Notes under the pieces: generated by a model
Database searches by the model: none
Seen by the model: the letters and a program-made list of their open reading frames with translations, nothing else
Told to the model about the DNA's origin: nothing
Made by a program: the position numbers and the translations under genes
DNA from: Rhodococcus globerulus NBRC 14531
GTDB lineage: Bacteria > Actinomycetota > Actinomycetes > Mycobacteriales > Mycobacteriaceae
Reading direction: 5' to 3'
DNA: 64,000 nt
Assembly (NCBI RefSeq): GCF_001894805.1
Contig: NZ_BCWX01000001.1
Span: 1,178,001 to 1,242,000 of the forward strand
Part shown: positions 13,592-25,055 of the stretch, one piece after another
Layout: every line of letters starts with the position of its first letter
How positions within the stretch are numbered: the first letter of the stretch is position 1

Positions 13592-13624
13592 CGGATGGCG
13601 GGTGAGCTGCCAAACTTGGAGGCA

Positions 13625-13640
13625 TCGAACATAAGTTCGA
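13625..13640. promoter_or_regulatory. LexA/SOS box
   Basis: TCGAACATAAGTTCGA is a perfect match to the actinobacterial/Gram-positive SOS consensus (TCGAAC-N4-GTTCGA). It lies 72 bp before the dnaE2 start. dnaE2 of M. tuberculosis is a known LexA-regulated, damage-induced gene, so position and target agree. Its presence here also argues against starts for dnaE2 upstream of 13640. Confidence 0.93.
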
Positions 13641-13711
13641 TGCACGATGCGTCTTCCCTCCCAGCATCGCGACTGTTCGCAAAGGCACTGTTCGCAAGCG
13701 GTGAGGCAAGT

Positions 13712-16700
13712 ATGGGCTGGGGTAATGGACCGCCGACGTGGTCCGAGATGGAACGAGTTCTGTCGGGACGCGCCGGCCGAGTCGAGCACGAAGATCTGTT
13801 TCCCGGCGACGGAAACGACAGCCCGGCATGGTCACGCAAGCGTGGGGAGTACACCGCCGGTGAACTCGCTCGCGGCAACAGCACCGTGCCGTATGCCGAA
13901 CTTCACGCCCATTCTGCGTTCAGTTTTCTCGACGGCGCCTCACCTCCGGAAGAGTTGGTGGAGGAAGCCGTCCGACTGGGCCTGGAAGCTATTGCCGTCA
14001 CCGATCACGACGGTTTCTACGGAGTGGTGCGGTTTGCCGAGGCTGCTCGAGAATGGGGAATGCGGACGGTGTTCGGGGCGGAGTTGTCCTTGGACTCCAC
14101 ACCGCGAGTGGGGGCGGCCGATCCCGGTGGGACGCACCTGTTGGTTCTCGCGCGCGGGCAGGAAGGCTATCGCCGGCTCTCCCGTGAGATCGCGGCAGCT
14201 CACCTGGCCGGTGGTGAGAAAGGGAAGTTGCAGTACAACTTCGACACCTTGACCGAAGCTGCGGGTGGGCACTGGCAGATCCTGACCGGGTGTCGGAAAG
14301 GTCATGTGCGGCAAGCTCTCACCGCCGGCGGGAAAAGCAGCGCCGCTGCGGCTTTACGGGATCTGGTCGAGCGTTTCGGTGCCGACCGGGTGGCGGTGGA
14401 GCTCACCCATCACGGGTTGCCGGAGGACGACGAGCGCAATGCTGTTCTGGCACAGCTTGCCGCCGAACAGGGATTGCGAACCGTGGCGACCACGGCGGCG
14501 CATTTTGCGGCGCCCCCGCGTCGCCGGTTGGCCATGGCGATGGCTGCGGTTCGCTCCCGGCAGAGTCTGGACGACGCCGCCGGATGGTTGGCTCCGACGG
14601 GTGGGGCGCACTTGCGTTCGGGTGAGGAAATGGCGTCGTTGTTCTCGCTCTACCCGGAGGCGGTCAGCGGAGCTGCCGAACTGGCCCGTGAGTGCGCTTT
14701 CGATCTGAGGCTCATCGCCCCCAAACTGCCGCCGTTCGACGTACCGCCTGGCCGCACCGAGGCGTCGTGGTTGCGTGAGCTCACGATGGCGGGGGCGTTG
14801 GATCGTTACGGGCCGCCAGAGGGTGCGGAGAAGGCGTATCGACAACTCGAACACGAGCTGGCCGTCATCACGTCCTTGGACTTCCCCGGGTATTTCCTCG
14901 TTGTCCACGACATAGTTTCGTTCTGCAAGAACAACGACATCCTCTGTCAGGGAAGAGGTTCCGCGGCAAACTCGGCGGTGTGCTACGCCATCGGCATCAC
15001 CAACGTCGACCCGGTTCGTAACGAGCTCTTGTTCGAGAGATTCCTCGCACCCGAGCGCGACGGTCCGCCGGACATCGACGTGGACATCGAATCCGACCGC
15101 CGCGAAGAGGCAATCCAGCACGTGTACACCAAGTACGGCCGCGAGTATGCCGCACAGGTGGCCAACGTCATCACCTATCGAGGGAAATCGTCGGTGCGGG
15201 ATATGGCTCGGGCACTGGGCTTTTCGCAAGGACAGCAAGACGCGTGGAGTAAGCAGGTCGGACGGTGGGGCGGCATCGACAAGAACGCCGAGACGGATAT
15301 ACCGCGCCCGGTGCTGGAACTGGCCGCACAGATCGAGGGGTTTCCCCGGCACCTCGGTATCCACTCCGGCGGCATGGTCATCTGCGACCGCCCGATTGCC
15401 GACGTCTGCCCGGTGGAGTGGGCGCGCATGGCCAATCGCAGTGTCCTGCAGTGGGACAAAGACGACTGCGCTGCCGCAGGTCTGGTCAAATTCGACCTCT
15501 TGGGCCTGGGAATGCTCTCGGCCCTGCACTACATGATGGATCTGGTAGCCGAGCACAAAGGCGTCACCGTTGATCTGGCGCAGTTGGATCTGCAGGAAAC
15601 TGCGGTGTACGAGATGCTCCAGCGGGCAGATTCCGTGGGAGTGTTCCAGGTGGAATCGCGTGCGCAGATGGCGACGCTGCCGCGTCTCAAACCGCGGAAC
15701 TTCTACGATCTGGTCGTCGAGGTTGCCCTTATCCGGCCCGGTCCGATCCAAGGTGGGTCGGTGCACCCTTACATTCGTCGGCGCAACAAACTCGAACCCG
15801 TCACCTATGATCATCCCTCGCTCGAAAAGTCCCTGAAGCGCACACTCGGTGTTCCGTTGTTTCAGGAACAGTTGATGCAGATGGCCGTCGACGTCGCGGG
15901 ATTCACGCCGTCCGAGGCAGACCAACTGCGTCGAGCCATGGGGTCGAAGCGTTCCACCGAGAAGATGGAACAACTGCGAGCGCGGTTGTATCAGGGAATG
16001 CGCGACCTTCACGGAATCGATGACGCAGTTGCCGACCGTATCTACGAGAAGTTGTACGCCTTTGCCAATTTCGGTTTCCCGGAAAGTCATTCGCAGAGTT
16101 TTGCCGCACTCGTCTTCTACTCGTCGTGGTTCAAACTGCATCATCCGGCAGCGTTCTGCGCCGGACTGCTCCGGGCTCAACCGATGGGGTTCTATTCACC
16201 GCAATCGCTTGTCGCCGACGCCCGCAGGCACGGGGTGCGAGTGCACGGTGCGGACGTCAACGTCAGTCTGGCGCATGCCACCGTCGAAGCGGCGGGGCTC
16301 GAAGTGCGATTGGGGTTGGGCGACGTGCGCAGTATCGGTGACGCACTGGCCGAGAAGATCGTAGAACAGCGCACTCTCGGCGGGCGGTTCACGTCATTTC
16401 TCGATCTGACCGGAAGAGTGGAACTCACGACGGCACAAGCGGAATCGCTGGCGACGGCCGGTGCGCTCGGTAGTTTCGGAATTTCGCGAAGAGAAGCGTT
16501 ATGGGCTGCGGGCGCTGCAGCGGGGGAGCGCCCTGATCGACTACCCGGGATGGGGGCATCGGTCACTGCCCCCACCTTGCCCGGTATGAGCGACGTCGAA
16601 CTGGCGGCGGCCGACGTGTGGGCTACCGGAGTATCTCCCGACACTTATCCGACGCAGTTCCTCCGCCCGCAACTCGACGCACTTGGCGTGGTCCCGGCGT

Positions 16701-16999
16701 CCGGGCTGCTCGACGTTGCGGACGGTGATCGAGTGTTGGTCGGGGGAGCGGTCACCCACCGTCAACGCCCGGCAACCGCGGGGGGTGTTACGTTCATCAA
16801 CCTCGAAGACGAAACCGGGATGGTCAACGTGGTGTGTTCGGTGGGGTTGTGGGCCAAGTACCGAAAGCTGGCCAATACGGCGCCGGCGCTCCTCATCCGG
16901 GGGAGAGTGCAAAACGCAGAAGGCGCTGTGACCGTCGTGGCAGACCGGATGCAGCGCATGGACCTCCGTGTCACGGCGAAGTCTCGGGATTACTGCTGA
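13712..16999 (+). CDS. dnaE2: Error-prone DNA polymerase DnaE2
   Basis: 1095 residues from the ATG at 13712, giving the family N-terminus MGWGNGPPTWSEMERVL; the frame is open back to 13595, but that would put the LexA box inside the gene. The PHP domain begins AELHAHSAFSFLDGAS (about residue 64). The C-family polymerase core has PDIDVDIES with the catalytic Asp pair near residue 455, VFQVESRAQM and FPESHSQSFA, and a C-terminal OB-fold (about residues 1010-1060). It performs translesion synthesis and damage-induced mutagenesis, normally with ImuA' and ImuB. Those partners are not encoded nearby. It is controlled by the SOS box. Confidence 0.96.
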   Translation: MGWGNGPPTWSEMERVLSGRAGRVEHEDLFPGDGNDSPAWSRKRGEYTAGELARGNSTVPYAELHAHSAFSFLDGASPPEELVEEAVRLGLEAIAVTDHDGFYGVVRFAEAAREWGMRTVFGAELSLDSTPRVGAADPGGTHLLVLARGQEGYRRLSREIAAAHLAGGEKGKLQYNFDTLTEAAGGHWQILTGCRKGHVRQALTAGGKSSAAAALRDLVERFGADRVAVELTHHGLPEDDERNAVLAQLAAEQGLRTVATTAAHFAAPPRRRLAMAMAAVRSRQSLDDAAGWLAPTGGAHLRSGEEMASLFSLYPEAVSGAAELARECAFDLRLIAPKLPPFDVPPGRTEASWLRELTMAGALDRYGPPEGAEKAYRQLEHELAVITSLDFPGYFLVVHDIVSFCKNNDILCQGRGSAANSAVCYAIGITNVDPVRNELLFERFLAPERDGPPDIDVDIESDRREEAIQHVYTKYGREYAAQVANVITYRGKSSVRDMARALGFSQGQQDAWSKQVGRWGGIDKNAETDIPRPVLELAAQIEGFPRHLGIHSGGMVICDRPIADVCPVEWARMANRSVLQWDKDDCAAAGLVKFDLLGLGMLSALHYMMDLVAEHKGVTVDLAQLDLQETAVYEMLQRADSVGVFQVESRAQMATLPRLKPRNFYDLVVEVALIRPGPIQGGSVHPYIRRRNKLEPVTYDHPSLEKSLKRTLGVPLFQEQLMQMAVDVAGFTPSEADQLRRAMGSKRSTEKMEQLRARLYQGMRDLHGIDDAVADRIYEKLYAFANFGFPESHSQSFAALVFYSSWFKLHHPAAFCAGLLRAQPMGFYSPQSLVADARRHGVRVHGADVNVSLAHATVEAAGLEVRLGLGDVRSIGDALAEKIVEQRTLGGRFTSFLDLTGRVELTTAQAESLATAGALGSFGISRREALWAAGAAAGERPDRLPGMGASVTAPTLPGMSDVELAAADVWATGVSPDTYPTQFLRPQLDALGVVPASGLLDVADGDRVLVGGAVTHRQRPATAGGVTFINLEDETGMVNVVCSVGLWAKYRKLANTAPALLIRGRVQNAEGAVTVVADRMQRMDLRVTAKSRDYC

Positions 17000-17782
17000 C
17001 AGCGCAAACGATTAGCGTATCCAGCGCATGTTTGGCAATTTAGTTGATGAAATTCACCCCCGATATCACCCTTTTGGTGATTGGCGTCGACGTGGTGTCA
17101 TTCACCCCCGGTTTCATCCTTTCTTTCTCATTCTTTGCCTTGTTGTTCGAGTATCTTTTCGGTGTCCATGGACTCGTCGAGGCAACTGTGGGCGTCCGTC
17201 GGGAAATTTTCGTCGCAGCGCGCGCATGGTGAGGTTTCGGGCTTCCCGCTAGGGACCTTCGGCGATGGTCGACCGTTCGCGGTGGTGTGGTGCAGCGTGG
17301 TGTGCGGGTAAGTGGTCTTCGACCGAAATGCGGTTTAGCTGGTCTTTTAAGCGAAAATGCAGGACAACCCGGCGGCGAATATCAGTCCGATGGGCAGGCC
17401 GGAGTTGATACAGAAGTGAGTGTCGCCCAAAAAATGGGACGAAAGTCACATTGGCGGCAAATGGTCCTAAATCGGGCATGGGAGGAGACGATTCCTCTGG
17501 CAGTTGTCTGCGAGTTACCCGTGAATCTGCTGGCAGTGGGTATTTCTTGATAGCGCGTCGATTTGTGCGGAAAAGAAATACGGCACTCTTGGATTCTAAA
17601 CTTCTGGAATCGAGCAATTTTCGCGCTGGTTTTTTTAATAGGAACGACGTAGCGTCCATCCGTGCAATCAATCAGCTAGTTGAGTAGTGAAGTACAGGCA
17701 AGTGAAGTACAGGGCCGGGTTCCGGACTGGGGAAGCCGGAACACGGTGCGAAGGGGCGGGATTCATCCCGCGGAGGGAAATC
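17000..17782 (+). promoter_or_regulatory. 783-bp leader/intergenic region before the Pls-like synthetase
   Basis: No convincing gene. It is visibly more AT-rich than its surroundings, with runs such as GGTTTTTTTAATAGG near 17630. It contains a direct repeat ATTCACCCCC at 17052 and 17100; a short hairpin ATCACC-CTTTT-GGTGAT at 17065-17081 that may end dnaE2 transcription; a direct repeat of AGTGAAGTACAGG at 17686 and 17701; a stem GTTCCGG/CCGGAAC at 17719-17742; and a second stem GCGGGA-TTCA-TCCCGC at 17756-17771 that abuts the GGAGGG ribosome-binding site (17772-17777). The last two could gate translation of the synthetase. No known riboswitch class is recognised. Confidence 0.5.
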
Positions 17783-20700
17783 ATGTCGGAACACAAGGGC
17801 CTGTGGGCTGACGCCTGGTCCGGGTTGGGGACCACGCACGGCGCTCGGCCTATGGTTCGGCCTACACGGCCTCGCCGCCTGAATCACGTCTTCGAAGCAA
17901 GTGCGGACTCGGTTCCGGGCGCGATCGCGCTCGAGTGCGATGGATTTGCGATCACCTACCGCCAACTCGAAGACCGATCGAATCAGTTGGCGCACATGTT
18001 GATCGGTGAGGGTATCGGGGTTGGCTCACGCGTTGCGATCTTCCTGAACCGCTCGGTAGATACCTACGTAAGCCTATTGGGCGTGCTCAAAGCCGGCGCC
18101 ACCTTTGTGCCGATCGATCCAGGTGCACCGTCCGATCGGGTTGCGTACGTGGTCGAAGACGCCGGAGTTCAGCTTGTGCTGACCTCTACAGAGTTGGAGC
18201 CGAACGCCGAGGAATGCAACGTTGCGCGGCTCACCCTCGACACGAACGTGGCGGTGTTGAACTTCCAGCCGCAGCATCGGCCCGTCCTGGACCTTGCGTC
18301 GGACCCTGACCCGGCCTGCTACATCCTGTACACGTCTGGTTCGAGTGGTCGACCCAAAGGCGTCGAAGTTGCCCAGTCGAGTATCTGCAACTTTCTCGAC
18401 GTGGTTCCCGACGTCTACGATGTTCGGCCGAATGATCGTGTCTACCAGGGTATGACGATTTCCTTCGACTTCTCGATCGAGGAAATCTGGCCCACCTGGG
18501 CCCGCGGCGCAACCATCGTCGCCGGACCGACGGACAGTCGGCGACTTGGCGGCGAGTTGGCGGATTTCCTCGAAGAACGCGCCATTACGACGCTGTACTG
18601 CGTACCGACTCTGCTCGCCACGATCCCGCGCGATCTGCCCAAGATTCGAAATCTGCTGGTCGGCGGTGAAGCGTGCCCGCGTGAGCTGGTGGAACGGTGG
18701 GCGCGTCCGGGCCGCAAGATCCTCAACACGTACGGGCCCACCGAGGCAACGGTCACTGCAACGTGGGGTGAACTCCTGCCAGGTCGGACGGTGACGATCG
18801 GTCGCCCACTCCCGACGTACTCCGTCGTCATTCTCGACGAAGCTCGCGGGCTGGTACCCCACGGTGAGGTGGGCGAAATCTGCATCGGCGGACGCGGTGT
18901 TGCGCGTGGTTATGTCGGACGCCCCGACCTGACCGCCGACAAATTCATCGATCACTTTTCCGTGCCGGCGGGCCAGAAGCTCTACCGGACCGGCGATCTC
19001 GGACGCTGGACGTCCGACGGTGAGATCGAATATCTGGGCCGCGCCGACGCCGAGGTCAAGATTCGTGGTCACCGAGTTGATCTCGGTGAGATCGAAAGTG
19101 TTCTCCTGGAACACCCGTCGGTGTCGGAGGCCGTAGTGGCGCTGGTCGCCGCGTCGGAAAACGAGACGCCGTCGGAACTGTGCGCGTACATGGTGCTGGT
19201 CGACCCGATCGAGGACGAGTACCTGGTCGGGGAACTCGCGAAGGCTGTGTCGCAACGACTTCCGGCGTACATGGCGCCGGCGTTTGTCGACTTCATCCCC
19301 GCATTGCCCGTGATGCCCAGCGGCAAAGTAGATCGATCGAAGCTCCCGGAACCGACCCGGCGACGTTTCTCGGCTCCGACAGGCCCGGTAGTCGAACCCC
19401 GGAACGAGCAGGAAGTAGCGGTTCGCGATATTTGGGCGCGGGCGTTCGGCATACCCGCAGACGAGATGTCGGTCGAAGCGAACTTCTTCGAAGATCTTGG
19501 TGGCCATTCGCTGCTGGCAGCAACGGTTATCTCTGCCCTGCGCGAAAGTGGCATCGGCGCAACTCCCTCGATCCGAGATCTGTACAGCCATCCCACTGTT
19601 CGCTCGATCACGCACGCGCTGGCAGCAGTGGGCTCCCAGCATCCGATTGCCCCGAATGTTGCTGTCAAACACACGGATACGGAAGTGGCTCGCGCCGGGG
19701 GCATCCAGTTGGCAGTGATCTATGTGTTCCTGCTGATCACGACGCTTCCCGTCTCGTACGTCTACACGAAGAACGACGGTTTTGTGTCGGTGCCGGTTCT
19801 GTTCGAGATGTTGGCAGCCATCATGCTCACGTATCTCTGCGTGCGCTGGTTCCTGCCGGTCATCAGTGCGCGCCCACTTGCCGCAGGAATCAAGCCTGGG
19901 CGATACAAACTGTGGGGTCCGACGTATCTGCGGCTGTGGACACTAGACCTGCTCCTCGCGGTCGGTGCTTTGCCCGTGGTCAGCGGATCGCCGTTGATGT
20001 CGATCTATCTCCGCATTCTCGGTGCGCGCGTCGGGCATCGCACTACCATCGCGACGTCCTCGATCTCGTTGCCGACACTGGTCGAGATCGGTGACGGGGC
20101 GTCGATCGGTTACGGCGCGACCATCCGGCCGTGGCGCGTCGAATCCGGTTCGGTGACGGTGGGGAAGATCGTCATCGAATCAGGTGCATTTGTCGGTGCA
20201 AACGTGGTGCTCGAACCTGGATCGACCGTCGGGGTGCGCGCCGCACTCGGTGATCAGTCGCTGCTTCCGTCCGGGCACATCGTGCCGCAGGAGGCCAGGT
20301 GGGCAGGATCGCCGGCAGTGCCGACCGAGTTCTTGGATCCGGCGGTCGAAACCATGATGCGAGCCGAAAGTGTCCGTGCCCGTTGGAAAGTGCGTCATAT
20401 CCTGGCAGCACTCGCCGGTCTGACGGCACTCGAAGTGGGTGCCATCGCCCTGATGGTTCCCGGTATCGCACTGGTCTGGGGCGCCCTCCTGGCTTGGGGT
20501 GTTTTGGCGGGACTGGTGGCGACGTTGTTTACCGGACCGATTTTCGTGATCACTGTCTGTGTTTTTGTTGCAGTGAACAAACGACTCGTTCTTCGCAACG
20601 CGCCTGCCGGAATGCATCCTGTTCGCTCGGGTCTTGGTATCCGCAAGTGGATGGTCGACAAGTTGCTCGAGTTCAGTTTGCTGTTCACGAACTCGCTGTA

Positions 20701-21874
20701 CGCAACGCTGTACACCGCGCCGTGGTTGCGGTTGCTCGGGGCGGACATCGGTCGCGGAGCAGAAGTCTCCACCGTGTCGCATATCGACCCGGACATGCTC
20801 ACCGTCGGCAAGGACAGCTTCATCGCCGACATGGCCAGCGTGGGAAGTGCGAGCTTCGCAAACGGCCGGATCATGTTCCAGCCCACTCGAATCGGCGAAC
20901 GCACCTTCATCGGTAATGCCGCGGTTATCCCGTCGGGTATGGAGATCGGCGACAATGCGTTGATCGGTGTCGCGACGGTGCCGCCTGTGAACGGTGTTCC
21001 GGAAGGCACGTCGTGGCTCGGTTCGCCCGCTATCTACCTGCCGAACCGTCAGGACAGCGGAGATTACGACGACGCGCTCATCTATACGCCGCCGCAGGAT
21101 GTAGTGCGTGACCGCTACGTGATCGAGTTCTTTCGCGCCACCTTGCCACCCACAGTTCTCGGCGTGAGCTTCTACCTCTATCTGTTGGTCTTGTCCTCCT
21201 TGGCATTCGGGCGAGCACTTCCCGTTCCGGCCCTCGTTGCGCCGCTGGTCGCGATGGCGTCGAGCCTTGCGGTGATCGGATTCTGCGCGGCGGTGAAGCG
21301 AAATACTGTGGGTCGCTACGAACCTCGGGTTGAGCCGCTGTGGAGTAAGTTCGTCCGACGGTCCGAATTTGCGACCGGGCTCTACGAAAGTGCTGCCGTC
21401 CCGATTGGCGTCGGGATGCTGGTCGGTACCCCGTTCCTGCCGATGGTGCTGCGCTGGTTCGGCACGACAATCGGCAAGCGAGTGTGGTTCGGAACCACCT
21501 ATCTCACCGAATTCGATCTCGTCCACGTCGGCGACGACGCCACTATCGGAACCGAGTCGTCGCTGCAGACACACCTGTTCGAGGACCGTGTCATGAAGAT
21601 GTCCACGATCACCATCGGCGATGGCGCCAGCATCGGGACACGATCGATCATCCTCTACGACACGGTTGTCGGCGAGGAAGCCTCACTCAGTCCGCTGTCG
21701 TTGCTCATGAAGGGCGAAGAGCTTCCGGCGCGGACGAGTTGGCGCGGAATTCCCGCTGAGGGGATTCGCGCCGACGACAGCTCGACTGTTCTCCTCGAGA
21801 AAGCTGTCCTCGAGAAAGCTGTCACCGACCAAGCTGTCACCGACATCGTCGTCGCGCAAGGAGTGTCCGCATGA
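17783..21874 (+). CDS. Pls/PosA-type membrane NRPS (epsilon-poly-amino-acid synthetase-like)
   Basis: 1363 residues from the ATG at 17783 (GGAGGG upstream). Domain order: adenylation (about 30-530; YTSGSSGRPKG, FDFSIEEIW, NTYGPTEATV, YRTGDLGRW, K515); carrier domain with Ser576 in LGGHSLL; then three left-handed beta-helix acyltransferase-like domains (about 742-840, 982-1082, 1222-1326) separated by membrane spans. There is no condensation or thioesterase domain. This is the layout of Streptomyces epsilon-poly-L-lysine synthetase Pls, which joins one amino acid into a side-chain-linked homopolymer at the membrane. The binding pocket has an acidic residue (E233), compatible with a cationic amino acid. 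The C-terminal tail carries short repeats (LEKAV, LEKAV, TDQAV). Confidence 0.92.
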   Translation: MSEHKGLWADAWSGLGTTHGARPMVRPTRPRRLNHVFEASADSVPGAIALECDGFAITYRQLEDRSNQLAHMLIGEGIGVGSRVAIFLNRSVDTYVSLLGVLKAGATFVPIDPGAPSDRVAYVVEDAGVQLVLTSTELEPNAEECNVARLTLDTNVAVLNFQPQHRPVLDLASDPDPACYILYTSGSSGRPKGVEVAQSSICNFLDVVPDVYDVRPNDRVYQGMTISFDFSIEEIWPTWARGATIVAGPTDSRRLGGELADFLEERAITTLYCVPTLLATIPRDLPKIRNLLVGGEACPRELVERWARPGRKILNTYGPTEATVTATWGELLPGRTVTIGRPLPTYSVVILDEARGLVPHGEVGEICIGGRGVARGYVGRPDLTADKFIDHFSVPAGQKLYRTGDLGRWTSDGEIEYLGRADAEVKIRGHRVDLGEIESVLLEHPSVSEAVVALVAASENETPSELCAYMVLVDPIEDEYLVGELAKAVSQRLPAYMAPAFVDFIPALPVMPSGKVDRSKLPEPTRRRFSAPTGPVVEPRNEQEVAVRDIWARAFGIPADEMSVEANFFEDLGGHSLLAATVISALRESGIGATPSIRDLYSHPTVRSITHALAAVGSQHPIAPNVAVKHTDTEVARAGGIQLAVIYVFLLITTLPVSYVYTKNDGFVSVPVLFEMLAAIMLTYLCVRWFLPVISARPLAAGIKPGRYKLWGPTYLRLWTLDLLLAVGALPVVSGSPLMSIYLRILGARVGHRTTIATSSISLPTLVEIGDGASIGYGATIRPWRVESGSVTVGKIVIESGAFVGANVVLEPGSTVGVRAALGDQSLLPSGHIVPQEARWAGSPAVPTEFLDPAVETMMRAESVRARWKVRHILAALAGLTALEVGAIALMVPGIALVWGALLAWGVLAGLVATLFTGPIFVITVCVFVAVNKRLVLRNAPAGMHPVRSGLGIRKWMVDKLLEFSLLFTNSLYATLYTAPWLRLLGADIGRGAEVSTVSHIDPDMLTVGKDSFIADMASVGSASFANGRIMFQPTRIGERTFIGNAAVIPSGMEIGDNALIGVATVPPVNGVPEGTSWLGSPAIYLPNRQDSGDYDDALIYTPPQDVVRDRYVIEFFRATLPPTVLGVSFYLYLLVLSSLAFGRALPVPALVAPLVAMASSLAVIGFCAAVKRNTVGRYEPRVEPLWSKFVRRSEFATGLYESAAVPIGVGMLVGTPFLPMVLRWFGTTIGKRVWFGTTYLTEFDLVHVGDDATIGTESSLQTHLFEDRVMKMSTITIGDGASIGTRSIILYDTVVGEEASLSPLSLLMKGEELPARTSWRGIPAEGIRADDSSTVLLEKAVLEKAVTDQAVTDIVVAQGVSA

Positions 21875-22611
21875 AATGGGTATCGCTGTCTCAGAACAAG
21901 ACCCGTCGAAGCACGACCTACAGCACGCGGCCGCACCCGCGGGCGCTCGTGTACCGCGGCCCCGCGTCGTTACCGGGGTGCCCGGAAGCCGTCGCAGATC
22001 TGTTGTCGTCGAGCGCCTGGAACTTCGACGTGCGCTTCGTCGGACCGGACGAGGAGTTGCAGATCGACGATTCCACGCTCCATTCGGCGGCGCTGTACGC
22101 ACAACCCGGCGGCGGTGACCTGGACAGGGCGTTCACGCACCTGCGCCGCCATGTTCCGGCGATTCAGCAATTCGTCCGATCCGGTGGACGGTACTTGGGA
22201 TTCTGCCTCGGTGGTTACCTCGCGGGCCGCAGCCCCGGGTTCGAACTGTTTCCCGGTGATGCAGACCAGTACGTCGCGTTGCAGAACGCCGAAGTGCACG
22301 ACACAAAAGGTGCTGTACTCGAGGTGGATTGGAGCGGCCAGATCGAGGAAATGTACTTCCAGGACGGACCGTACTTCTCACTCGACCGGCATTACCGGGA
22401 TTACTACGATTCCGAGGCAGCGATTCTCGCGCGGTATCAGAACGGAAGTATCGCGGCTTTGAAGATCGACTACGGCAAAGGTCGGGTCGGGGTAGTCGGG
22501 CCGCATCCTGAAGCCGACGAATCCTGGTATCAGGGTGACGGTTTGCGGGCACCCGAGCACCTCGCCACCGACCTGGGGTACCGCTTGATCAACGCAGTGA
22601 TGACCCGATGA
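21871..22611 (+). CDS. BPL-N domain (amidotransferase-like) protein 1
   Basis: 246 residues, starting inside the synthetase stop (ATGA). The fold is the class I amidotransferase-like N-terminal domain of biotin-protein ligases (BPL-N). It has RALVYRGPASLPGCPEA, ALYAQPGGGDL, the nucleophile elbow YLGFCLGGYLAG with Cys112, YFQDGPYF, and a conserved GRVGVVGPHPEADESWY with a candidate catalytic His. No signal peptide is evident. Overlap with the synthetase suggests that it acts with it, for instance cleaving, capping or transferring the isopeptide polymer; that function is inferred. A paralogue with an export signal lies 1.2 kb away on the other strand. Confidence 0.85.
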   Translation: MKWVSLSQNKTRRSTTYSTRPHPRALVYRGPASLPGCPEAVADLLSSSAWNFDVRFVGPDEELQIDDSTLHSAALYAQPGGGDLDRAFTHLRRHVPAIQQFVRSGGRYLGFCLGGYLAGRSPGFELFPGDADQYVALQNAEVHDTKGAVLEVDWSGQIEEMYFQDGPYFSLDRHYRDYYDSEAAILARYQNGSIAALKIDYGKGRVGVVGPHPEADESWYQGDGLRAPEHLATDLGYRLINAVMTR

Positions 22612-23843
22612 CAGCCAGTCCGCTCGCGCCGACGGAGCAGATCCCGGTAGTGGAAAAACAGCGACTTCTCGGGATCGACGCCGCCCGCGGTATTGCCCTG
22701 CTTGGCATGATGGCCGTCCACTCACTGATCGCCGTGAGCGACGACGGATCGCCCACGCTGTCCTACGGCATTTCGGCAGGGCGATCGTCTGCGTTGTTCG
22801 CAGTCCTGGCCGGTGTGGGAATTGCCTTCACGACCGGGCGCGCGCGGGTGGAACGCGGTGATCGCGGTGCCACAGCAGCGTCACTGGCAGCGCGTGCAGC
22901 GGTGGTCGGCGTCATCGGATTGATCATGGGATACACGCACGCGGAGCTCGCCGTGGTGATCCTGCCGTACTACGCGATCCTTTTCCTTATCGCTATTCCG
23001 CTTGTCTTCTTGCCTACCCGTGCAGTTGCAGCGCTCGGCCTGCTGATCGCACTTGTCGTGCCGGCCGTCATCGAATTTTTCGGGACATCGCTCCCCGCAC
23101 CGAGCTTGGACAACCCGACGTTGGTCGGCATTATCGAGAATCCACTCGGATGGACCGTCGAACTGCTGTTGAACGGGGAGTTCCCGGCTCTTCCGTGGAC
23201 TGCGTACATCTGTGCCGGTATCGTCATCGGCCGGTTGAAGCTGACATCTGCGAACGTGGCCGGTTGCTTGTTGGTGTTCGGCGCTGCACTTGCAGTCGGC
23301 ACGCGAATTCTGTCCGAGGTCTTGATCTTTCATCTCGGCGGGCTGGAACACCTCATGGCGGGCAGCGAATTGTCGCGCGAGGAAATTCTCGACATCATCG
23401 CCTACGGCGCCGACGGTTCGGTGTTCGGTTCGACGTGGTGGTGGCTTGCCGTCGACGGCCCGCACAGCAGTACGCCGTTGGACCTGTTGGGGACGATAGG
23501 GTCGTCAATGGCCGTGATCGGGGCGATGCTGTTTCTCGGCCACCTGGCGGGGACAAAACTGGATACGTTGGTCAAGGTCGTGATGGTGCCCTTGGCTGCC
23601 GCCGGATCGATGACCTTGACGCTGTATGTGCTTCACATCTGGTTCATCAATTCGAACTACGACACGTACGGCGCGTGGACGGGGTACATCCTGCAGGTTC
23701 TGGCCGCTTTTGCCATCGGACTTTTTGTGAAGTTGACTACCGGGCGTGGACCGTTGGAAGCGTTTGTGACGATGGTGGCAAATCGAAGCAAGCGGGCTGT
23801 TACGGAGAGGGCGTCCACAACTGCTCCGGCGCACCACGCCTGA
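22608..23843 (+). CDS. Multi-span acyltransferase-like membrane protein (DUF418/HGSNAT type)
   Basis: 411 residues with about ten hydrophobic spans. The N-terminus RLLGIDAARGIALLGMMAVHSL is the D-x-x-R-G start shared by DUF418, DUF1624 (heparan-alpha-glucosaminide N-acetyltransferase-like) and acyltransferase-3 proteins. Later signatures are SALFAVLAGVGIAF, GSMTLTLYVLHIWF near residue 335 and a basic C-terminal tail. The family moves acyl groups across the membrane. Its ATG overlaps the stop of the upstream BPL-N gene, so the synthetase, BPL-N protein and this gene form one coupled operon. It could N-acylate the polymer; this is inference. The 3' end overlaps the convergent gene by 44 bp. Confidence 0.8.
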   Translation: MTASPLAPTEQIPVVEKQRLLGIDAARGIALLGMMAVHSLIAVSDDGSPTLSYGISAGRSSALFAVLAGVGIAFTTGRARVERGDRGATAASLAARAAVVGVIGLIMGYTHAELAVVILPYYAILFLIAIPLVFLPTRAVAALGLLIALVVPAVIEFFGTSLPAPSLDNPTLVGIIENPLGWTVELLLNGEFPALPWTAYICAGIVIGRLKLTSANVAGCLLVFGAALAVGTRILSEVLIFHLGGLEHLMAGSELSREEILDIIAYGADGSVFGSTWWWLAVDGPHSSTPLDLLGTIGSSMAVIGAMLFLGHLAGTKLDTLVKVVMVPLAAAGSMTLTLYVLHIWFINSNYDTYGAWTGYILQVLAAFAIGLFVKLTTGRGPLEAFVTMVANRSKRAVTERASTTAPAHHA

Positions 23844-24576
23844 CCGTGTCGACGAGGTCGTGGCCCAGGTCGAATCGGATTCCGTCCGGATTGGTGAGAC
23901 CGCGTGTGTACCAGGACCGCTCGGCTTCCGGGTGTGGTCCGACAACGCCGACGCGTCCGAGGCCGAAGTCGCTGACCACGGCTGCGATCTTCCCGTTGCG
24001 GTAGCGCGCCAAGACCTCCACCGGGGCATCCTCGCGCAGTACGAAGATAGGGCCGTCCTGGAAGAACATCGTGCGTTCCTCCTCGCGCCAGGTGACGTTC
24101 ACGATCGTGTTTCCTGTTGTGTCGATCTCGGACTTGCGGGACGAGATATATCGAGCGGTGTCTCCCGGCAGCAGTCCGAAACCCGGTGTGGCCCCGGCCA
24201 AGTAGCCGCCAAGGCAGAAGCCGAGATAGTGTCCGCCGGTTCGGACCCACTCCCGGATCGACTCCGCATGTTGTTCCATGTGGACCCATGCCGCCGTAAG
24301 TTCCCCGCCGCCGGGTTGTGCATAGAGCGATGCACTCGCCAACGCTGCTGTCGTCAACGGAACATCTTCGTCCGGACCGCAGAACGTCACGTCGTACGGA
24401 TCGGACGAGGATTCGAGTAACCGACCAACCGCCTCGGGACAACCGGGTGATGATGCCGGCCCGCGGTAGACCAAGGCGCGCCGGGGACGGATTCGGGTGG
24501 AATCGGCTGACGCGACAACAGTTCCGCCGATGGTGACCAGCGCAGCAGCCGAGACGAGGAAGGTGCGGCGATTCAT
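23800..24576 (-). CDS. BPL-N domain (amidotransferase-like) protein 2, Tat-exported
   Basis: 258 residues, clearly paralogous to the protein at 21871: the same RALVYRGPAS, CPEAV, LYAQPGGGEL, YLGFCLGGYLAG (Cys121) and GRVGVVGPHPEAERSWY segments. The difference is the N-terminus, MNRRTFLVSAAALVTIGGTVVAS, a twin-arginine (RRTFL) export signal with a Ser/Ala cleavage region. This copy should therefore act outside the membrane, as expected for an enzyme handling an exported polymer. It is transcribed towards the acyltransferase gene and overlaps it tail to tail. Confidence 0.85.
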   Translation of the reverse strand: MNRRTFLVSAAALVTIGGTVVASADSTRIRPRRALVYRGPASSPGCPEAVGRLLESSSDPYDVTFCGPDEDVPLTTAALASASLYAQPGGGELTAAWVHMEQHAESIREWVRTGGHYLGFCLGGYLAGATPGFGLLPGDTARYISSRKSEIDTTGNTIVNVTWREEERTMFFQDGPIFVLREDAPVEVLARYRNGKIAAVVSDFGLGRVGVVGPHPEAERSWYTRGLTNPDGIRFDLGHDLVDTVRRGAPEQLWTPSP

Positions 24577-24743
24577 CGCGTGATCAGTTCAGCTTCGCCC
24601 GGCAATCATGGGTTCACTTTATCGAACTCGTGGTTCGGCCAGGTCGTCGCGTCCGCTGCCGGAGGCACCCGCGTACCGTTACGGCAGAGCTAGGTTACCG
24701 AGGAAAGCCGGCAACGGCCGATACGAGAGTAGGACTGCGCACA

Positions 24744-25055
24744 ATGTTGGAAGTCGATATCACTGCACTGGAAGCGGCACTGGCGACAGGTGAGCCGTTG
24801 ATCGATGTGCGGGAGGCAGACGAGTTCGCCCAGGTGCGTGTCCCCGGTGCCGTACTGATCCCGATGAGCGAGTTCGTCTCGCGCATGGGCGAGATCCCCG
24901 ATGCCGAGACGGTGTACGTGATCTGCGCAGTCGGTGGCCGCAGTCTCCAGGTTGCCGAGTACCTCCAGGGCCGCGGCATCAACGCTGTTTCCGTACGTGG
25001 CGGAACGATGGAGTGGCACCAGTCCGGGCGCGAGGTCGAAACCGGAGCCGTCTAA
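24744..25055 (+). CDS. Rhodanese-like domain protein
   Basis: 103 residues, a single rhodanese domain. It has IDVREADEFAQVRVPGAVLIPMSEF, then the active-site loop CAVGGRS with Cys61, then the closing RGGTMEWHQSGR. The frame is open to 24630, but the ATG at 24744 gives the domain its usual boundary. Single-domain rhodaneses carry persulfide sulfur. The gene ends 4 bp inside the convergent transporter gene. Confidence 0.9.
   Translation: MLEVDITALEAALATGEPLIDVREADEFAQVRVPGAVLIPMSEFVSRMGEIPDAETVYVICAVGGRSLQVAEYLQGRGINAVSVRGGTMEWHQSGREVETGAV

Follow-up and report, generated by a model that had tools for sequence, protein, structure and literature searches.

Polylysine, a food preservative, is the best-studied relative of the polymers considered here, and cationic homopolymers of this kind are antimicrobial and in industrial use. 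To our knowledge, the cutting and release of such chains are known mainly for polylysine. In Streptomyces albulus, the genes pls and pldII share 4 nt (PMC4361855, available text). In the available part of PMC9223678, pldII is translationally coupled, and its product, located outside the membrane, is described as pivotal to self-protection. According to the available text of PMC10522769, position 2 of the substrate pocket is alanine in Pls and phenylalanine in the PDAP and PDAB synthetases.

The window analyzed in this study, i.e., the whole stretch of 64,000 nucleotides from Rhodococcus globerulus NBRC 14531 (genome size, 6.73 Mb), carries a synthetase gene of this kind together with three further genes (Table 1). 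The first-pass annotation had reported these four genes, and each was recovered at the same position with a profile match. The two junctions on the + strand (P0001/P0002 and P0002/P0003) are ATGA overlaps of 4 nt, which bears out the coupling by ATG/stop overlaps that had been proposed for the synthetase, the BPL_N protein, and the acyltransferase; the P0001 frame is also open from an upstream GTG at 17687. P0003 and P0004 are convergent, and by their coordinates the 3' ends overlap by 44 nt. P0004 carries NRRTFL and a hydrophobic segment, a twin-arginine-like signal (motif found by eye), in agreement with the description of a second, tail-to-tail BPL_N protein with a Tat signal. The gene on the left flank is presumably dnaE2, a name that stems from the earlier annotation and was tracked by similarity alone, and the flank gene labeled trmL gives a SpoU_methylase match.

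Table 1. Genes of the cassette and the genes that flank it in the window
Gene	Position	Strand	Properties
Left-flanking dnaE2-like gene	13595-16999	+	Similarity across genomes
P0001, Pls/PosA-type isopeptide homopolymer synthetase	17783-21874	+	1363 aa; adenylation and carrier domains, then membrane polymerization domain
P0002, BPL_N protein 1	21871-22611	+	BPL_N, 61.9 bits (cutoff, 24.2); no signal-like start
P0003, HGSNAT_cat-like multi-span putative acyltransferase	22608-23843	+	HGSNAT_cat, 38 bits (cutoff, 22)
P0004, BPL_N protein 2	23800-24576	-	BPL_N, 61.9 bits; twin-arginine-like signal
Right-flanking rhodanese-domain gene	24630-25055	+	Rhodanese match

P0001 gives Pfam matches to AMP-binding, AMP-binding_C, PP-binding, and hexapeptide profiles, and its residues 644 to 1325 match TIGR02353 ("Pls/PosA family") with 576.9 bits against a curated cutoff of 423.1; with the adenylation and carrier domains present, the assignment to the Pls/PosA type stands. 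The three predicted β-helix domains are compatible with the hexapeptide and TIGR02353 matches. Simple hydropathy yields eight segments, a crude count in which some overlap, and the family plan is six transmembrane helices (three pairs, arranged around C1-C3). The pocket residues of P0001 were located by the spacing of Asp217, Met218, Glu221, His260, Asn280, Thr304, Val312, and Ser313 of PosA, as given in the available text of PMC10522769, and the spacing of the eight corresponding residues is identical. Asp229 and Glu233 of P0001, which are predicted to bind the two amines, are thus spaced like Asp217 and Glu221 of PosA (PMC10522769, available text). The resulting code is DFEYLGTVTK (residues 229, 230, 233, 272, 292, 294, 316, 324, 325, and 515).

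Among 116 distinct synthetase sequences, in which that of the window is counted twice, 44 read DAESIGTVVK, 70 begin with DFE, and 2 are incomplete. DFEYxGTVTK is found in 68 of the 70, and the remaining two are DFECLGTVTK (locus L169) and DFECLSAVTK (L176). The latter locus, from Streptomyces griseocarneus, lies on a long branch beside the window's clade and has no BPL_N gene within its short flank. On a quick synthetase tree, the DFE and DAES groups are separated by one change. Because the codes are split between DFEYxGTVTK here and DAESIGTVVK in the classical clade, the monomer of P0001 is predicted to be diaminobutyrate or diaminopropionate, not lysine. The first-pass annotation had drawn an analogy with epsilon-poly-lysine, which fails on three points: the lysine code DAESIGTVVK is absent from P0001, position 2 is phenylalanine as in the PDAP and PDAB synthetases (PMC10522769, available text), and the genome holds a separate lysine-type synthetase (contig 10, L185; DAESIGTVVK) with an adjoining M1 peptidase. 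A lysine polymer from P0001 was rejected on the difference between the two codes. A diaminobutyrate transaminase profile is matched in the genome with 462.3 bits (cutoff, 401.6), and no SbnB-family enzyme in the genome is above the cutoff, the best match having 133.3 bits against 326.9, so the predicted monomer leans to diaminobutyrate. Approximately 6 kb separates the transaminase from the weak SbnB-family match (G000:C2:144564-153073); the two are perhaps part of another pathway. No genes for Dap or Dab synthesis were recognized by eye among the 25 neighbor families listed for the cluster, some ORFs of which are in wrong frames.

P0003 resembles HGSNAT (heparan-alpha-glucosaminide N-acetyltransferase) in that it is above the cutoff of PF07786 (38 against 22 bits), whereas the relation is distant; its Acyl_transf_3 score of 22.3 bits is below the cutoff of 31. 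Arg19, Asp24, Arg27, His38, His286, and His343 are conserved in 97% or more of 50 sequences. From the HGSNAT match and these conserved residues, we infer that P0003 would be the acyltransferase of the polymer.

The borders of the cassette are visible in related genomes. The trmL region was read in 18 genomes of the genus (27 others were found); in 16 of them dnaE2, the rhodanese gene, a SLAC1-type transporter gene, and trmL are present without the cassette, and in two all four cassette genes are present. Genome G165 also has the cassette at the same place. The whole cassette, with its gene arrangement and the convergent BPL_N gene preserved, is also located on plasmid pR8L1 of Rhodococcus sp. 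008, next to an IS256 transposase gene, and two other Rhodococcus plasmids that were read carry the first three; there is only one BPL_N place on three of four close Rhodococcus plasmids. The synthetase of the window groups with those of Pseudonocardiaceae rather than, G165 excepted, with the other members of its own family recovered in the search of 201 genomes (quick tree, support of 85). The empty sites in relatives, the plasmid copy near IS256, and this grouping suggest that the cassette was transferred between lineages.

The membrane domain of the synthetase was searched against 201 genomes of the same family, and the clade of the window comprises 15 loci in 14 genomes with identities of 57 to 100%, followed by 37% and below among the matches listed; one of these loci (genome G193) is fragmented, with identities of 54 and 64% for its pieces. 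A BPL_N gene lies directly downstream of the synthetase in 14 of the 15 loci. The exception is G154 (L184), whose sole BPL_N match is on another contig. None of the 17 classical Pls loci read out contains BPL_N, and by eye no classical synthetase is located within 100 kb of a BPL_N gene among the matches listed for both. Across 396 genomes of the phylum, BPL_N relatives (E ≤ 1e-15) occur in three, two of which adjoin a synthetase of the window's type. When species genomes were scanned with the BPL_N alignment, 76 distinct loci were kept as the best of 221 relatives; 67 contain a synthetase, and among the 9 without one, several are short contigs or are truncated where a contig ends. On the other hand, BPL_N occurs away from any synthetase of the clade in 6 of 19 BPL_N-bearing genomes, G154 among them, and without a clade synthetase in the regions that were read from Rhodococcus ruber and from Burkholderia and Agrobacterium plasmids. 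A chance neighborhood is rejected by the linkage within the clade and by the cassette borders across genomes; the synthetase and BPL_N are a real unit. The genome survey that the first-pass annotation had named as its own refuting test, i.e., whether the BPL_N and acyltransferase genes ever travel with the synthetase, came out in its support. In the titles and abstract openings listed by the literature searches, no BPL_N protein is mentioned together with a polymer synthetase.

The partner genes were counted over 75 clade loci, 74 of which were retrieved via BPL_N and therefore say nothing about BPL_N linkage: the acyltransferase is present in 50, a second BPL_N in 34, a DDAH-like gene in 14, and an M1 peptidase in 12. 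The DDAH-like gene is situated between the synthetase and BPL_N, mostly in Micromonosporaceae (L098, L099, L102, L103, L107, L108, L110, L111, L112, L115, L116, L130, L149, and L154), and the one checked in Pfam matches DDAH_eukar with 35.1 bits; its product might act on the chain at amino or guanidino groups. In plasmid pKVP2 of Streptomyces viridifaciens (L094), BPL_N is located approximately 7.5 kb from a gene whose annotation is that of an adenylation-domain protein and whose product is similar to the synthetase at its end. Five loci from two genera of the family (L075, L077, L081, L084, and L085) have a BPL_N protein whose start looks lipoprotein-like by eye, in a neighborhood that lacks a Pls-type synthetase; the BPL_N gene in L077 is broken.

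BPL_N is the sole Pfam match of both P0002 and P0004 at E ≤ 0.01, a cutoff at which no M1 peptidase domain is found in either, and the nearest named relatives of the window's BPL_N protein are from Rhodococcus. The name is Pfam's only; a role as biotin ligase was rejected, since no ligase domain is matched. Neither protein has a match in PHROGs. In the BPL_N alignment, Cys112, Glu214, and Gly80-Gly81 are invariant, and His212 is present in 38 of 39 sequences, the one without it coming from the damaged G193 locus. Cys112, His212, and Glu214 correspond to a G-x-C-x-G elbow with a His-x-Glu motif, which we take to be the signature of the class I glutamine amidotransferase-like superfamily. The PDB matches are weak (E values of 0.064 and 0.074), and in them the nucleophile motif aligns with a glutamine amidotransferase chain and HisH; one distant relative has a GATase_3 match just above the cutoff. 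Homology to Peptidase_C26 (gamma-glutamyl hydrolase type) was not detected, as the hhalign profile comparison gave a probability of 0.3%, no better than the 0.5% of an unrelated control. Because this comparison is negative and the PDB matches are weak, it is the Pfam match and the motifs that support the catalytic reading.

The hydrophobicity before the BPL_N core was compared between copies with trimmed queries at a threshold of 1.6, lowered from 1.9. It is exceeded by 0 of 73 first-downstream copies, whose upstream residues, read without assigned start codons, may be partly untranslated, and by 28 of 29 second copies, one of which (in the broken cluster L154) is doubtful; a twin-arginine motif is present in the remaining second copy (1.52). 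The groups are barely separated, the first copies reaching 1.56 and the second copies starting at 1.52; the threshold of 1.9 is passed by 0 of 73 first copies and by 21 of 29 second copies. The threshold of 1.6 is also passed by 11 of 13 upstream or other-strand copies and by 8 of 16 copies in synthetase-free loci. The placement of one BPL_N protein inside and one outside the cell, which had been read from the window, thus holds as a rule across loci. The exported copies retain the same predicted catalytic residues as the first copies. On a quick tree of 129 sequences, one change separates the first-downstream from the linked signal-bearing copies; with the unlinked copies added, the first-downstream group requires five changes and the exported group two. 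This fits an old inside/outside pair, and the tree gives no direction.

In the classical loci, an M1 peptidase of the PldII type follows the synthetase in 14 of the 17 selected (three checked in Pfam), and this slot is taken by BPL_N in the clade of the window. In several loci of the window's family (L185 and L192-L194), the classical M1 partners have no signal-like start by eye, in contrast to PldII, described as outside the membrane; that of Streptomyces noursei (L199) has one. Twelve of the 75 clade loci (nine from Microbispora and three from Streptomyces) have the order synthetase, BPL_N, M1 peptidase, with five of the peptidases checked in Pfam and all 12 beginning with a signal-like segment as judged by eye. 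None of these 12 has a second BPL_N or an acyltransferase; conversely, the acyltransferase accompanies the second BPL_N in all 34 clade loci that contain the latter, and M1 is present in none of the 34. The exclusion between M1 and the second BPL_N gives p = 0.0003, a value that overstates the effect because the exchange follows kinship. The exported M1 peptidase of the PldII kind and the exported BPL_N look like alternatives, to a weight that the kinship of the 12 loci limits.

Our main reading, to which we assign a probability of roughly 0.58, is that the window holds a self-contained cassette for a cationic isopeptide homopolymer and that its BPL_N pair consists of cysteine hydrolases of the polymer that take the place of PldII, one within the cell and the other outside it. 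From its pocket code and domains, the synthetase would activate 2,4-diaminobutyrate most likely, or else 2,3-diaminopropionate, load it on the carrier domain, and polymerize it via the side-chain amine in the membrane domain. The HGSNAT-like protein would add acetyl or other acyl groups to amines of the chain and tune its charge. Both BPL_N proteins would cut the polymer with Cys112 as the nucleophile together with His212 and Glu214; the coupled cytosolic copy may clear or trim chains inside, and the exported copy may degrade or recycle the chain outside and protect the producer, as PldII does for epsilon-polylysine. Hydrolysis is favored because the 4-nt overlap places BPL_N where pldII lies, because BPL_N alternates with M1, and because Cys112, His212, and Glu214 are conserved; position and alternation are what suggest that it would work like PldII. 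The first-pass annotation had spoken of hydrolase or transferase tailoring enzymes, of which the hydrolase half is retained and the open-ended tailoring is better replaced by polymer hydrolases in the PldII slot. A wider proposal is that the BPL_N proteins form a new family of hydrolases that cut isopeptide polymers by means of a cysteine, that the inside/outside pair is old and serves the whole poly-Dab/Dap synthetase clade across actinobacteria, and that its inner copy is also the missing chain-release factor; this is speculative, and we consider it unlikely.

The coupled cytosolic BPL_N could instead be a chain-release enzyme, i.e., a thioesterase in trans that frees the polymer from the carrier, with the exported copy left to degrade it. 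BPL_N is indeed the steady partner of the synthetase, whereas the acyltransferase, the second BPL_N, M1, and the DDAH-like gene come and go, and release from the PDAP synthetase, which has no thioesterase domain, is unexplained in the available text of PMC4668381. However, the classical Pls and PosA work without BPL_N, the posA of A. baumannii being a single-gene unit in the available text of PMC10522769. The exported copies, moreover, keep their catalytic residues where no carrier domain is expected, and we find chain release by the inner copy doubtful. Cysteine acyl-enzymes can transfer acyl groups to amines, and one copy is outside the cell, so that BPL_N might move the polymer onto the cell wall or other amines; nothing specific counts against such transfer, no wall genes were recognized by eye among the neighbor families listed, and we hold it to be quite improbable. 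Amidotransferases work with an ATP-using partner, which is not to be expected at the extracellular site of the second copy, and this makes it very unlikely that the BPL_N proteins produce ammonia from glutamine, e.g., for a chain-end amide or diamino acid supply, even with the nucleophile alignments and the GATase_3 match described above in its favor.

If the reading as PldII-like hydrolases is correct, a clade-wide BPL_N partner family that extends from Streptomyces to Rhodococcus and onto plasmids would provide a handle on chain release, self-protection, and acylation. The sequence rule that DFE... synthetases go with BPL_N and DAES... synthetases with M1 would predict the type of product from genome data.

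In comparison with the described systems, the locus shares with Pls and PldII of S. albulus the synthetase architecture (TIGR02353) and a partner gene that overlaps by 4 nt (PMC4361855, available text). It differs from the lysine-type Pls in the pocket code, in the membrane domain, which is 28 to 34% identical, and in the partner, BPL_N in place of the usual M1 peptidase, a comparison for which S. noursei was used. The PDAP and PDAB synthetases of S. albulus PD-1 and others have phenylalanine at pocket position 2, as in the window (PMC10522769, available text). S. noursei A-2-1 has two family members at E ≤ 1e-50, one of lysine type with M1 and one with the code DFEYVGTVTK and BPL_N, a pair that recalls Pls and PDAPs of S. 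albulus PD-1. The PDAP synthetase gene of PD-1 has 4,338 bp in the available text of PMC4668381, i.e., 25 residues more than the 1420-aa frame of S. noursei, and our guess, by elimination, is that the DFEYVGTVTK synthetase is orthologous to PDAPs. PosA, the delta-poly-L-ornithine synthetase, belongs to the same family and shares the spacing between the Asp and the Glu of the pocket, whereas its code is DMEHNGTVSK and its gene stands singly (PMC10522769, available text), compared with DFEYLGTVTK and a four-gene cassette in the window.
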